Assembly: GCF_036327775.1 (NCBI RefSeq)
Contig: NZ_CP109598.1
Span: forward strand, 682,001-746,000
DNA length: 64,000 nt
Origin: Streptomyces sp. NBC_01498
GTDB lineage: Bacteria; Actinomycetota; Actinomycetes; Streptomycetales; Streptomycetaceae
Direction of reading: 5' to 3'
How positions within the stretch are numbered: the stretch's first letter is position 1; each line of letters starts with the position of its first letter. A program made the position numbers and the translations under genes. The notes under the pieces were generated by a model. The model was not told the origin of the DNA. It did not search any database and saw only the letters and a list, made by a program, of their open reading frames with translations. This document shows, piece after piece, positions 30,914 through 35,802 of the stretch.

Positions 30914-31230
30914 GGGGACGAGGCTACGGGGGCGGTACGGGTACGAGGAGACGGCCCCGGCGCGTACGGCCACCCCGTCGGTGTCGCGGCTGCGCTCCGG
31001 CGCGCGGCGGAGCCAGGTCGCGCGGGCCCGCTGTTCGTGGCGGAGGTGAGCGAGGCCGATCTCGACCACCGGGGTCAGCCCGAACCGGAAAGTGGACCAC
31101 GCCGTGCGTCCTCCAGATGAAGTCGTATGGACAACCGGCCGTCATAGCATGGGTCTTGGGGGACGGCGACGTGTCGGGGCGCCGTTGTTGATCGGGAGGA
31201 CCGGGGACCATCAGGGAACGCATCGCGGCC
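30914..31230. other. Intergenic region upstream of the NACHT gene
   Basis: About 317 bases lie between the cobK start and the annotated GTG of the NACHT protein. GGGAGGA at about 31194-31200 is a good ribosome-binding site, but it is followed nine bases later by ATC (31210), not ATG or GTG. A possible promoter lies around 31125-31150 (TGGACA and TAGCAT boxes, weak). No other gene is seen. Confidence 0.45.
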
Positions 31231-34200
31231 GTGTTCGGGGTTACGCAGGGAAGCGGGTATCTGCTCTCGTCACGCGTTGTCCTCACCGCACGGCATCTGT
31301 TGGACGTGGGCACGGAGACGACGGTGGTGGTGCCGGGCGGGCGTGGGCGTATCCGCTGCCGGACCGTGTGGGCCGGCAGGAGGTCCGGGGACGACGTGGC
31401 GCTCCTGCTCGCGGACGAAAGACTGGTGTCGGACAACGCCTCGGAGGCGTTTCAGACCAGTCTGTTCGCCCGTGTCGAGGGTTCCACTCCGCTGCTGAAC
31501 TGCTACGCCCTCGGCTTTCCCCAAGTAGGCAGGTACGACGGCCAGAAGCTGGACTCCGAGCAGTTCGTCGGCACGATCAAGCCGGGTTCGGGCAGGATGC
31601 GCGACGAGTACGTCGTGGAGGGGGCCGGCACCCCTCCGGCCCCTCGCGAAGACGGGGAGTCGCCGTGGGCCGGGATGTCCGGCGCACCGCTCTTCTCCGG
31701 CAGACACCTCATCGGCGTGGTCACCAAGGACGTCTCGGGCTGGCAGCACAGTCGGCTCACTGCCCTGCCCCTGGAAAGGCTGCCCGAACTGCCCGATTTC
31801 GTCGGCATCTGCGGCGCCTATCTCGGCAAGCCCCTGCACTTGGCCACGCTGCGCCAAACCCTTGACCACTCGGCCTCGTTCGAGGATCGGTACCGCGACT
31901 ATGTGACCGAGACGTTCGGCGAACTGAGCATCTTCGGCCTGGACTTCAGCCGGTCCGAACACGCGCAGTGGCCGCTCGACTCCGCCTATCTCAGTCTCGA
32001 ACTCGTCCACGGGGAGGGCGGGGAACGCGCGACCCCCGAGCGGGGCCGGGTCGAGTCCGCCCTGCGCGACCGGCATCGTGTGCTGCTGCGGGGTGCGGCC
32101 GGATCCGGCAAGACCACTCTCGTGCAGTGGCTGGCCGTGAACGCGGCACGGGATTCGTTCCCCGACCAACTCACCCACCTCGGTGGACGGGTCCCCGTCG
32201 TCCTGCCGCTGCGCACGCTGGTGCGCGGTGCGGCACTGCCCGCGCCGGGGGACTTCCTCAGCGCGGCGGGGCATCCGCTGAGTCCGCCCGCCGGATGGAT
32301 GGAGGCGGTGCTCACCGAGGGGCGTGGTCTCCTTCTCGTGGACGGCGTGGACGAGATGCCGGAAGCCGACCGGGCGCGAACGAAGCAGTGGCTCGTCAAG
32401 CTGCTCGCCGCCTATCCGCGCACGGCCGTCGTGGTGACCACCAGGCCGACGGCGGTCGAGGACAAGTGGCTGGACCGCAAGGAGTTCACCGAGTTCCAGT
32501 TGCTGCCGATGAACCGGCGGGACGTCACCGCGTTCGTGCACCGTTGGCACACCGCGGCGCGCTCGATCACCCGGCGGGACTCCGAACGAAGTGAACTCGA
32601 CGCGTACGAGCAGCAGTTGCTGTCCACCCTGCCCCGCAAGCAGGACTTGGCCCGGCTCGCCACCAACCCCCTCATGTGCGCGATGATCTGCGCCCTGCAC
32701 CGCGACCGGCGCGGGTTCCTGCCGGACAGCAGGATGAAGCTGTACGGCGCGGCGCTGACGATGCTCCTGGTACGGCGCGACCACGAACGGGCGATCGGAG
32801 CCCCGGAAGGTCTGACGGTCGCCGAGGAAGAACAGCAGAAGATTCTTCAGGAAATCGCCTACTGGATGATCCGCAACGAGATCGCGGAGGCGGAACAGGA
32901 GGACGTGATCGGGCTGATCGCCCGGATTCTGCCGGCGATGCCGCAAGTGGCGACGCCCGAGGACGCTCCACAGGTCTTCCGGTTCCTGCTGCACCGGAGC
33001 GGGCTCCTGCGCGCCCCGACGGCGCGCACGGTGGACTTCATCCACCGGACGTTTCTGGACTACCTGGGGGCGCGGGCGGCCGTCGAGGCACAGGACATCA
33101 ACATGATCGCCTCACATGCCCATGAGGCGCAGTGGGAGGACATCGTCCGGATGGCCGTCGGCCATGCCCGGGACAGTGAACGGGCGGCACTGCTCACCAA
33201 GCTCCTGGCGTCGGGGGACGCCGTTTCCGAGACCTCGCACAACATCATGGCGCGAATCCACTTGCTGGCCGCCGCGAGTCTGGAGCACGCGACGAGCCTC
33301 GATCCGGCGGTCCGTACCGAGGTTGAGCGACGGGCCGCCGCGTTGATCCCGCCCAAGAACGAGGAAGAGGCGAACCGGCTGGCCGACGCCGGCCCACTGG
33401 TGCTGGATCTGCTGCCCGGACCCGAGGGTCTGTCAGACGTGGAAGCGGCGGCAGTGGTGAGGACGGCGCAGTTGATCGGCGGGGATCACGCGTTGCAGGT
33501 GCTTCGTGAGTACGCCCGGCATCCGGCGCACGGTGTTCGGGTCGAACTCGTCTATTCCTGGGCCTCGTTCGAATCGACGGCTTTTGCCGAGACCATCCTC
33601 GCCCGTATGGACACCTCTGATCTGGCGGTCGCGGTGCACTCCTCGGAGCAACTCGCGGCTCTGCACCTGATGCGAAACGCACCCTGGGTGACATTCAACG
33701 GAGATCTGTGTCCTGAGGACATCGCGGGCGCCATCCGAGCAGTCGCAGCCCGCAAGGTCACGGTATTCGACAACAACCGGCTCAAGAGTCTCAGCGCGTT
33801 CAGCGAAACGGCCGCCTCCCTCGCCGAACTGCTTCTCGTCTCGTGCCCCGAGGTCAAGGACTACACCGGTCTTTCGAGACTGAACCTGGAAACCTTCGGC
33901 GTGCACGGCACACTGCCCGCGCAGGCGCTGTCCGGACTCGACGCCGCCGCGAATCTCCGCAAACTCACGCTCAACGTACTCGGTGACGACGCCCGGCCGG
34001 ACATGCTGGATCTGCCCGCCCACTTGCCCACGCTTCCGTCGGTCACTCAGCTTGAGCTCGTCCTGCACTTCGACAGGGACGTCGATGCCGCGCTGCTCGG
34101 GACGCGCTTCCCCAACGTGCGACGGCTGTACCTGCAAATGGCGTCCCACGGACACGCCGACGTGGACCTCTCGGCCCTGACATGGGTTCCCGAGATCACG

Positions 34201-34290
34201 GCCCTGATCCTCGGTGATTCCCTGCACCTCAAAGGCACCGAACTCCTGTCCATCCGCCAAGTGACGCCACCCGAGGAGGACCCCTCATGA
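31231..34290 (+). CDS. Trypsin-NACHT NTPase with LRR-like C-terminus (STAND/NLR-type conflict protein)
   Basis: The protein is 1019 residues from the GTG used here. Residues 1-190 are a trypsin-like protease: QGSGYLL, His22 in LTARHLLD, Asp55 in GDDVALLL, Ser150 in WAGMSGAPLFSG. Residues 275-560 are a NACHT NTPase with Walker A RGAAGSGKTTL (about 287-297), Walker B GLLLVDGVDEMPEADR and sensor VVVTTRP. A helical middle follows, then about 250 residues of LRR-like units (LAELLLVSCPEV, LRKLTLNVLG, VTQLELVLHF, VRRLYLQMA). Such proteins are thought to sense invaders and fire the protease. The frame stays open upstream, with good RBS spacing to an ATC at 31210, so the true start may be seven codons earlier. 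The next gene overlaps as ATGA. Confidence 0.88.
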   Translation: MFGVTQGSGYLLSSRVVLTARHLLDVGTETTVVVPGGRGRIRCRTVWAGRRSGDDVALLLADERLVSDNASEAFQTSLFARVEGSTPLLNCYALGFPQVGRYDGQKLDSEQFVGTIKPGSGRMRDEYVVEGAGTPPAPREDGESPWAGMSGAPLFSGRHLIGVVTKDVSGWQHSRLTALPLERLPELPDFVGICGAYLGKPLHLATLRQTLDHSASFEDRYRDYVTETFGELSIFGLDFSRSEHAQWPLDSAYLSLELVHGEGGERATPERGRVESALRDRHRVLLRGAAGSGKTTLVQWLAVNAARDSFPDQLTHLGGRVPVVLPLRTLVRGAALPAPGDFLSAAGHPLSPPAGWMEAVLTEGRGLLLVDGVDEMPEADRARTKQWLVKLLAAYPRTAVVVTTRPTAVEDKWLDRKEFTEFQLLPMNRRDVTAFVHRWHTAARSITRRDSERSELDAYEQQLLSTLPRKQDLARLATNPLMCAMICALHRDRRGFLPDSRMKLYGAALTMLLVRRDHERAIGAPEGLTVAEEEQQKILQEIAYWMIRNEIAEAEQEDVIGLIARILPAMPQVATPEDAPQVFRFLLHRSGLLRAPTARTVDFIHRTFLDYLGARAAVEAQDINMIASHAHEAQWEDIVRMAVGHARDSERAALLTKLLASGDAVSETSHNIMARIHLLAAASLEHATSLDPAVRTEVERRAAALIPPKNEEEANRLADAGPLVLDLLPGPEGLSDVEAAAVVRTAQLIGGDHALQVLREYARHPAHGVRVELVYSWASFESTAFAETILARMDTSDLAVAVHSSEQLAALHLMRNAPWVTFNGDLCPEDIAGAIRAVAARKVTVFDNNRLKSLSAFSETAASLAELLLVSCPEVKDYTGLSRLNLETFGVHGTLPAQALSGLDAAANLRKLTLNVLGDDARPDMLDLPAHLPTLPSVTQLELVLHFDRDVDAALLGTRFPNVRRLYLQMASHGHADVDLSALTWVPEITALILGDSLHLKGTELLSIRQVTPPEEDPS

Positions 34291-34625
34291 CCCCCGACCC
34301 CCTCCCCCGCATCGACCTCACCCAAGCCGTGCGGGTCGTCCGCGACCAGCTCATGGCAGCCGCCTCACACGGCGCCGGCCAGGATCTCCGGTTCGACGTC
34401 GGGGAGATCCAGATGGAGTTCGCCGTCGAGTTGCGGCACGACACCCGCGTCAAGGGCGGCGTCAGGGCATGGGTGGTCTCCGCCGACGTGGACGCCGGGC
34501 GCGGGGCCGCCCACACCCACAAGGTCGCGTTCACGCTCAAGCCCAAGAACGCCCGTACCGGCGGCGACTGGGAGATCGGCAACGACGGCCCCGACGCCGA
34601 CACCTCCGCGTTCGGCGGCAGCTAG
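34287..34625 (+). CDS. Trypco2 (trypsin-co-occurring) domain protein
   Basis: This 112-residue protein fits the Trypco2 family, small proteins found beside trypsin-domain conflict NTPases. It begins with an amphipathic helix (IDLTQAVRVVRDQLMAAAS) and continues with beta strands (LRFDVGEIQMEFAVEL, RAWVVSADVDA, HTHKVAFTLKP). The ATG overlaps the stop of the NACHT gene as ATGA, so the two are translationally coupled. By family context it probably regulates or is processed by the partner protease; its biochemical role is not established. Confidence 0.85.
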   Translation: MTPDPLPRIDLTQAVRVVRDQLMAAASHGAGQDLRFDVGEIQMEFAVELRHDTRVKGGVRAWVVSADVDAGRGAAHTHKVAFTLKPKNARTGGDWEIGNDGPDADTSAFGGS

Positions 34626-34632
34626 CAGGGAG

Positions 34633-35802
34633 TTACGCGCCCCACCCCGCCTGCTCCCCGCCCACCCGTTCCGCCACGATCCGCTTCCCGTATCCCGAGG
34701 CGTGGTACGCTGCCACCGGGTCCGCGTCCGCGCCCAGTTCCTCGCGGACCTCGGCCACCAGGGGGCGTACGTCCGTGTCGTACGCGTCCATCAGGGCCGC
34801 GTTCGCCGCCAGGACGTCGCCGTCGCGCTGGGCGGCCGACAGGGCGTCGGCGTCGACCAGGAGGGCCTTCGCCGTCGCCTCCTGGACGTTCATCACCGAG
34901 CGGACGACCGCCGGGACCTTCTCCTCGATGTTGTGGCACTGGTCGAGCATGAAGGCGACGTCCGGGGTGAGGCCGCCGCCCCGGATCACCTCGTACATGA
35001 TCCGGAAGAGCTGGAACGGGTCGGCGGCGCCCGCCATCAGGTCGTCGTCCGCGTAGAAGCGGGAGTTGAAGTCGAAGCCGCCGAGCTTCCCCTCCCGCAG
35101 CAGCATCGCCACGATGAACTCGATGTTCGTGCCCGGCGCGTGGTGGCCGGTGTCCACCACGACCCGTGCCTTGTCGCCGAGGCGCAGGCAGTGGACGTAG
35201 GCCGTGCCCCAGTCGGGGACGTCGGTGGCGTAGAAGGCGGGCTCGAACAGCTTGTACTCCAGCAGCATCCGCTGGTCGTCGCCGAGCCGTTCGTACACCG
35301 CCGCCAGCGCCTCGGAGAGACGGTCCTGGCGGGCGCGGAGGTCGTCCTGGCCGGGGTAGTTGGTGCCGTCGGAGAACCAGAGCTTGAGATCGCGCGACCC
35401 CGTCGCGTCCATGATGTCGACGCACTCCATCAGGTGCCCCAGTGCCTTGCGGCGCACCGCCGCGTCCGGGTGGCAGACGCTGCCGAGCTTGTAGTCGTCG
35501 TCCTGGAAGACGTTGGCGTTGATCGTGCCGAGCCCCACGCCGCGCTCGCGGGCGTACGCGGCCAGGGCGCCGTAGTCCTTCACCCGGTCCCAGGGGATGT
35601 GGAGCGCGACGGTGGGCGCGACGCCGGTGTGGGCGTGGACGCGGGCCGCGTCGTCCAGTTTCTCCTCGGGCGTCCGGGGGACGCCGGGCCGGGCGAAGAC
35701 CTTGAACCGGGTCCCGCTGTTGCCGTACGCCCAGGACGGGGTCTCCACGGCCTGTGTCCTGAGGGCCGCCTTCACGGCGGAGATGTCGGGTCGGCTCGTC
35801 AT
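34633..35802 (-). CDS. rhaI: L-rhamnose isomerase
   Basis: This 389-residue TIM-barrel isomerase converts L-rhamnose to L-rhamnulose. It belongs to the RhaI group found in actinobacteria and rhizobia rather than E. coli RhaA. Metal and substrate residues sit in LWFSDGTNYPGQDD, MLLEYKLFEPAFY, VVVDTGHHAPGTNIEF and GGFDFNSRFYADDD. GGAG precedes the ATG. The gene reads away from the rhamnose importer across an operator-bearing promoter region. No rhamnulokinase or aldolase gene follows; seven bases beyond the stop lies the convergent Trypco2 gene. Confidence 0.93.
   Translation of the reverse strand: MTSRPDISAVKAALRTQAVETPSWAYGNSGTRFKVFARPGVPRTPEEKLDDAARVHAHTGVAPTVALHIPWDRVKDYGALAAYARERGVGLGTINANVFQDDDYKLGSVCHPDAAVRRKALGHLMECVDIMDATGSRDLKLWFSDGTNYPGQDDLRARQDRLSEALAAVYERLGDDQRMLLEYKLFEPAFYATDVPDWGTAYVHCLRLGDKARVVVDTGHHAPGTNIEFIVAMLLREGKLGGFDFNSRFYADDDLMAGAADPFQLFRIMYEVIRGGGLTPDVAFMLDQCHNIEEKVPAVVRSVMNVQEATAKALLVDADALSAAQRDGDVLAANAALMDAYDTDVRPLVAEVREELGADADPVAAYHASGYGKRIVAERVGGEQAGWGA

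Follow-up and report, generated by a model that had tools for sequence, protein, structure and literature searches.

The window analyzed here is a stretch of 64,000 nucleotides from Streptomyces sp. NBC_01498 (contig NZ_CP109598.1, positions 682,001 to 746,000); it is part of one 7.27-Mb contig, and its nearest named relatives are Streptomyces. Between a minus-strand cobK-type gene and a minus-strand rhaI gene we find two plus-strand genes, the first coding for a protein that joins a trypsin-like serine protease, a NACHT NTPase domain and leucine-rich repeats (LRR), the second for a Trypco2 protein. Residues of the large protein are numbered from the ATC codon at 31210. The unit comprises the following features.

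31194..31199, plus strand: GGGAGG, probably the ribosome-binding site of the ATC start, as judged from the sequence and from the same hexamer 5' of the ATC in the related loci L032 and L164
31210..34290, plus strand: trypsin-like protease/NACHT/LRR protein, a bacterial nucleotide-binding, leucine-rich-repeat (NLR) protein of 1026 residues from ATC 31210 or 1019 from GTG 31231
31210..31818, plus strand: serine-protease domain of HtrA/Deg/V8 fold, about residues 1-203 (Pfam Trypsin_2, structural match, triad conserved in 42/42 sequences)
31294-31296, 31393-31395 and 31678-31680, plus strand: triad codons His29, Asp62 and Ser157
32077..32556, plus strand: NACHT NTPase domain, residues 290-449 (Pfam PF05729, 5.8e-25; match to the NLRP3 NACHT)
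32092-32118, plus strand: Walker A, GAAGSGKTT
32329-32355, plus strand: Walker B, LLLVDGVDE
32620..33609, plus strand: mainly helical region C-terminal to NACHT, residues 471-800 (structure model)
33625..34263, plus strand: LRR in units of ~23 residues, probable sensor, residues 806-1018 (model, fold matches, variability)
34287..34625, plus strand: Trypco2 protein, 112 residues (Pfam, conservation), its start overlapping the NLR stop as ATGA

The Pfam Trypsin_2 match covers residues 14-163 (E 2.9e-6, 28.5 bits; cut-off 27.6). In an alignment of 42 trypsin-NACHT sequences, which takes in the window protein and the initial open stretch of a decayed copy, His29, Asp62 and Ser157 and the Walker A/B residues checked are identical throughout, as are the glycines flanking the triad. 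A second set of 121 rows (the window protein and the best 120 of 2950 database proteins) holds only His, Asp and Ser at the triad columns, with gaps at His in 7 rows and at Asp in 5. We find that the predicted structure (predicted local distance difference test score, pLDDT, 85.5) resembles HtrA/Deg/V8 proteases at its N-terminus and animal NLRs over the rest. The NLR matches run through the LRR, whose strands lie ~23 residues apart in the model, and the alignments with NOD2 and NLRP3 extend to residues 1017-1026. No Pfam LRR model matches the window protein; such matches occur in three of six relatives scanned, one of them above the cut-off. A sequence search for solved relatives returned a single match (E 0.069). 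By its NACHT-clade STAND NTPase domain with Walker A/B and its C-terminal LRR the protein belongs to the bacterial NLRs, and by its fold and His-Asp-Ser triad to the PA-clan trypsin-like serine proteases. An earlier note made from the sequence had described the triad (as His22, Asp55 and Ser150 counted from the GTG, which are the same residues), the Walker motifs and the ATGA overlap, all correctly by the open reading frames (ORFs), Pfam and the 42-sequence alignment. Its LRR-like units are borne out by the strand spacing and the NLR fold matches, and the protease and NACHT folds on which it had staked its reading both appear in the predicted structure, together with the LRR.

The large protein is likely to be translated from an AUC codon. 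Past the in-frame stop at 31189 no ATG, GTG or TTG precedes GTG 31231, so the ATC at 31210 is the only plausible start that covers residues 2-7 (RERIAA). Distant relatives conserve these residues, R4 and V8 are at least 90% conserved in a 67-row alignment (A4), and the model places a strand at residues 5-9. The ATC and the upstream GGGAGG, which it follows by 10 nt, are both kept in the locus L032 of Streptomyces sp. NP-1717 and in L164 of genome G377. Together these observations make the AUC start likely. GTG 31231, the start named in the earlier note, is disfavoured because it would lose residues 2-7, while the coordinate 31210 given there stands as that of the ATC; the upstream ATG at 31149, in another frame and absent from L032, is rejected. 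In the database records of the five closest proteins (P0001-P0005) the start is set too far downstream, and the active-site His is missing from all five, the Asp from P0002-P0005 as well; these late starts probably stem from the ATC start. Their precomputed Pfam lists hold NACHT only, and the clade therefore appears in databases as a protease-less NACHT protein.

Exchange of N-terminal domains and the Trypco2 partner

We compared 144 distinct NACHT ORFs, the window protein excluded, and found the protease on 41 and none on 103. When the N-terminal regions of these 41 were clustered with those of the 92 non-protease ORFs with 150 or more residues before the NACHT query, the 41 trypsin sequences formed one family and 90 others one protease-free family, leaving two singletons. 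Two members of the 90-member family were tested and are NNH1; the one singleton tested (L027) is not. A tree was built from 142 NACHT cores, with the window protein and without three short ORFs. On it the label for a missing protease requires six changes, against a mean of 35.8 for shuffled labels, and at least three changes are forced by well-supported branches, although this is a quick tree with long branches and the exact count is uncertain. Judged from clustering and tree, one NACHT chassis occurs with the protease or with a different N-terminal domain (NNH1 where tested), and these have been exchanged several times. The genome itself holds, ~2.46 Mb away, an NNH1-NACHT paralogue (L178) that is 55% identical over query residues 221-740. 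Three trypsin-NACHT proteins (L003, L117 and L118) have a short C-terminal part that ends 140-163 residues past the NACHT query, and they lack a Trypco2 gene beside them; elsewhere in their clade the long C-terminus is retained.

The second gene belongs to the Trypco2 family (PF19631, 2.5e-25, 89 bits; cut-off 24.2), in keeping with its ATGA overlap with a trypsin-NACHT gene, and the two genes are probably made from one transcript. Scans of the sequence for promoter and terminator consensus gave no match. Trypco2 lies just upstream of 24 of the 41 trypsin-NACHT ORFs and just downstream of 5 (6 with the window), and once beside a decayed copy; the downstream placements form a single clade (support 96), to which the window protein belongs. 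Among the 103 non-protease ORFs, only four have a same-strand Trypco2 in their locus. In L011 and L082 a trypsin-NACHT gene follows it closely, in L100 the distance is 5.8 kb, and the fourth is the fragment of the decayed copy; in L082 the non-trypsin gene lies 41 bp and the trypsin gene 42 bp away, and assigning Trypco2 to the latter is a judgement. Starting from Trypco2 instead, 31 of 38 loci have a same-strand protease domain no more than 600 bp away, and in 16 of these this NACHT core comes next. The 38 comprise 10 loci from the search of genomes of the clade lacking an adjacent Trypco2 and 28 of the best-scoring genus matches; the locus sets overlap and hold related genes, and their counts depend on one another. 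Across 30 pairs, distances between Trypco2 proteins correlate at 0.48 with those of the protease and at 0.41 with those of NACHT, a small difference; the partial correlations are 0.33 and 0.21, with 2 and 8 of 1000 permutations as high.

On this comparative evidence, Trypco2 has its dedicated partner in the protease domain and not in the sensor chassis. The coupling proposed in the earlier note thus becomes a specific link to the protease. Dependence on the protease domain is the best clue to the role of Trypco2, and it does not separate regulator, substrate and adaptor. Control of the protease, as inhibitor or activation partner, is the likeliest role, at about even odds; a role as protease substrate or pro-effector is possible but on the doubtful side, and one as substrate adaptor is unlikely. 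No fold is assigned to Trypco2, as the model is poor (pLDDT 62.2; predicted template modelling score 0.38) and has no PDB match below E 0.57. Past the end of the Pfam model (34560-34622) the protein carries a motif ending in FG, in which F109 and G110 are nearly invariant in a 43-row alignment.

Diversification and distribution of the unit

Compared with L032, the nearest relative with DNA, the protein is 90% identical in the protease, 90% in the linker, 94% in NACHT, 98% in the helical region 471-730 (the most conserved of the five regions) and 61% in the C-terminal region 731-1026, and the corresponding ratios of nonsynonymous to synonymous divergence (dN/dS) are 0.29, 0.16, 0.17, 0.05 and 0.55. 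To locate the variation within the LRR, we described the strand cores as X-L-X-L-X and counted the different residues per column at X, at L and in the remaining LRR, using 10,000 permutations. With six close sequences and eight strand cores the values are 3.25 for X, 1.50 for L and 2.34 for the rest, the X value being reached in 30/10,000 permutations against the polar rest and in 4/10,000 against all the rest. With 15 sequences they are 5.67, 2.19 and 3.95, with 3/10,000 and 0/10,000 permutations as high. The strands were picked after the variability had been seen, and the register was therefore slid as a control: of 22 offsets, 0 gives the highest value in both sequence sets, with eight or with all ten strands. 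Most variation thus falls at predicted concave-face positions, concavity being taken from the strand pattern rather than from coordinates. The pattern is that expected of a recognition surface, and the LRR is probably the sensor. The earlier note had cast the LRR as the sensor of an invader; identity, dN/dS and the X columns agree with a variable, sensor-like part, for which phages are a putative target.

The unit has a GC content of 67.8% compared with 72.2-72.5% in the two flanks. At third codon positions (GC3) the NLR gene stands at 0.84 and rhaI at 0.96, which makes the NLR gene look acquired; by the same measure Trypco2 (0.95) does not. The neighbours are:

30134 onward, minus strand: cobK-type gene (Pfam CbiJ/CobK), upstream
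34636-35793, minus strand: rhaI, named by reading only (no Pfam hit at 1e-5), downstream

The flanks of the unit align at mostly 84-92% DNA identity (79-84% over short stretches) in L032, G377 and G367. The comparison at this junction that the earlier note had suggested gives a patchy picture rather than a locus conserved in all relatives. The unit is intact in two genomes, the window's own and L032. The G377 copy (L164) is frameshifted near residues 431-464, and a ~1.25-kb deletion takes its NLR C-terminal part and the start of Trypco2, so that both genes are damaged. In G367 the unit is absent from a 19-kb stretch, and 1.35 kb of other DNA with a 393-residue ORF without Pfam hit is found in its place. 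In the more distant G355 it is absent from an 18-kb stretch around rhaI, where rhaI is followed by an aldolase/short-chain dehydrogenase gene and an FGGY kinase gene. At 29 other rhaI loci cobK is not found within 1.5 kb, and the cobK-rhaI junction therefore looks young. More widely, 12 of 37 same-genus genomes (own included) have a match running from residue 20 or earlier to past residue 700, and 24 of 392 genomes match at E 1e-190, 15 of these from residue 1-3. The wider NACHT family matches in 43 of 61 relatives. Plasmids gave 14 records at E 1e-40, one of them with the protease part and a trypco2 gene upstream of it.

Defence reading and its alternatives

The helical region, NACHT and LRR share their fold with animal inflammasome NLRs (NLRC4, NOD2, NLRP3), at 11-20% sequence identity in the structural matches listed. 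Animal NLRs recruit caspase-1 via CARD or PYD, whereas in the window protein the protease is fused directly. Kibby and colleagues reportedly dealt with bacterial NLRs and NLR-related bNACHT proteins in 2023.

The bNACHT proteins share the central NACHT, C-terminal sensor and N-terminal effector, and the combination of NACHT with LRR is termed a bona fide bacterial NLR; those described there carry a nuclease or no readily discernible effector, whereas the window protein has a serine protease and a Trypco2 partner (Conte 2025, PMC12169576). Trypco2 was named in a study of VMAP/MoxR-vWA ternary systems, where, as here, a trypsin-like domain has a neighbouring Trypco2 gene; there the protease sits on VMAP with MoxR and vWA partners instead of on a NACHT-LRR protein (Kaur 2020, PMC7159879), and a Pfam scan of six genes flanking the unit finds none of the three components. 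Trypsin or caspase N-termini likewise occur on NACHT/nSTAND proteins of predicted conflict systems, as STAND-FGS combinations and, in the available text, without LRR or Trypco2 (Kaur 2021, PMC8195603). In Avs1, Hachiman and Lamassu, too, a trypsin-like domain is fused to a defence sensor beside a partner gene; such pairs are exchanged among systems, and oligomerization activates the trypsin domain, which cuts the partner (Tuck 2025, PMC12799240). The Avs1/Hachiman partner is a metallo-beta-lactamase (MBL)-fold pro-nuclease (PMC12799240), unlike the 112-residue Trypco2, which is of no recognized enzyme family, and the six scanned genes give no MBL match. NACHT-LRR NLRs, trypsin on STAND (PMC8195603) and trypsin-Trypco2 pairs (PMC7159879) are thus each already known singly. 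Among the papers listed from the openly licensed PMC literature, outside which most subscription papers lie, we found none on trypsin-NACHT-LRR with Trypco2, nor any functional test of the trypsin-NACHT-LRR clade. Trypco as a subject gave two papers there.

Domains, predicted folds, active-site conservation, diversification of the LRR, swapping of effectors and the tie of Trypco2 to the protease are computed results, and from them we consider it fairly probable that the unit is a two-gene bacterial NLR with a protease effector, a sensor for defence or cell suicide. The diversifying LRR end would recognize a danger cue inside the cell, the likeliest being a protein or a condition brought about by a phage or mobile element that invades it. 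This would lead to nucleotide exchange and oligomerization of NACHT, as in animal NLRs, gathering the N-terminal HtrA/V8-fold protease domains and switching them on, and the active protease would cleave cellular targets so that growth arrest or death limits the invader. That the LRR senses, NACHT assembles and the protease fires follows the analogy with NLRs, bNACHT proteins (PMC12169576) and Avs1/Hachiman (PMC12799240); nucleotide-driven assembly, activation, trigger and outcome are inferred. If so, receptor, assembly wheel and protease would be present in one bacterial protein, inflammasome logic could be tested without adaptors and the role of Trypco2 directly, and the concave-face diversification of a bacterial LRR would provide a handle for a ligand search. 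A bolder joint proposal, by which the protein is a single-chain bacterial inflammasome kept scarce by its AUC start, and Trypco2 a proteolytically controlled switch or substrate that moves with the protease between unrelated sensor chassis, a second partner-protein logic beside the Avs1/Hachiman pro-nucleases, is speculative and rather unlikely.

Several observations weigh against a defence NLR with a dedicated partner. PADLOC returned four partial matches near NACHT (best 5e-4) and no full-length match to a defence model, and the best NCBIfam defence match, DS8, scores 17.1 bits against a cut-off of 790, so that known defence models give only weak matches, mostly in the NTPase region. No defence island is seen, the six scanned flanking genes being metabolic, transport-related or without Pfam hit, and the GC3 of Trypco2 is flank-like. 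A phage collection gave zero matches, and pattern-led viral_contigs scans confirmed a relative in none of the 54 and 600 stretches tested, which rules against a phage origin of the unit. Synonymous divergence (dS) from L032 is also elevated in the C-terminal region (0.53, compared with 0.18-0.28 outside it), which suggests recombination as well as selection; dN/dS stays below 1, and the LRR divergence may in part reflect recombination. Eleven of the 41 trypsin-NACHT ORFs, nine of them in one clade, have no Trypco2 of their own within 400 bp; flanks of many loci span only 1.5 kb, and among the wide loci of these ORFs only the second gene of L085 has one. Seven of 38 Trypco2 loci lack a same-strand protease neighbour, two having it on the other strand and five having none. 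All seven searched genomes of the clade without adjacent Trypco2 carry one elsewhere, six beside another trypsin-NACHT gene, and supply in trans is possible; the background rate is 78 of 121 genus genomes.

Trypco2 might itself be the effector, a small proprotein cut by the activated protease like the Hachiman and Avs1 pro-nucleases. The layout is the same, with a separate gene beside a sensor-fused trypsin domain and the pair moving between chassis, and Trypco2 is upstream in 24 of 30 pairs, as pro-nuclease genes typically are (PMC12799240). Yet at E 0.1 the searches of Pfam, NCBIfam and PADLOC match this 112-residue protein to the Trypco2 family alone, and in our reading its conserved residues contain no catalytic set; we regard the role as doubtful. 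A housekeeping or developmental regulator, for example a protease switch in stress or morphogenesis unrelated to invaders, would fit the wide occurrence of the NACHT family and the position of 45 of 80 wide loci near clpC, and bacterial STAND NTPases have been studied mainly as transcriptional regulators (PMC7159879). It is nevertheless unlikely, the protease form being patchy in the genus and decayed or absent in close relatives, and the lower GC3 and diversifying LRR being unlike a conserved housekeeping gene.

The diversifying LRR would equally suit recognition of kin, in which, as in NLR incompatibility of fungi, it reads a self component that varies; the fungal parallel is also drawn for related conflict systems, which are enriched in multicellular bacteria (PMC7159879). 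However, a close relative (G367) lacks the unit at the same junction and we noticed no linked polymorphic ligand gene, although no search was aimed at one; we consider such allorecognition quite improbable. That the protease domain is a non-catalytic, peptide-binding or regulatory relic is brought to mind by the vWA systems, where nearly all trypsin domains in the effector position are catalytically inactive (PMC7159879), but invariance of the triad and its glycines in the 42 sequences and the absence of any other residue at the triad columns of the 121-row set make this highly improbable.

Chromosomal neighbourhoods of related loci

In the 22 related loci, the non-overlapping families common to at least 10 are Trypco2, ClpC, an M23 peptidase and a histidine kinase, the genes for the last two each recurring in 10 of 22 trypsin-type loci. 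We could not identify a common neighbouring effector gene among these 22, in which the smaller shared families are only partly identified. Where the surrounding stretch was fetched, clpC is present in 45 of 80 NACHT-family loci, that is in 11 of 21 trypsin-type loci (L036, L040, L049, L069, L071, L079, L082, L084, L085, L088 and L090) and 34 of 59 others. The clpC region reads as a chromosomal NLR hotspot whose occupants differ in their N-terminal effector; the window unit is located elsewhere.

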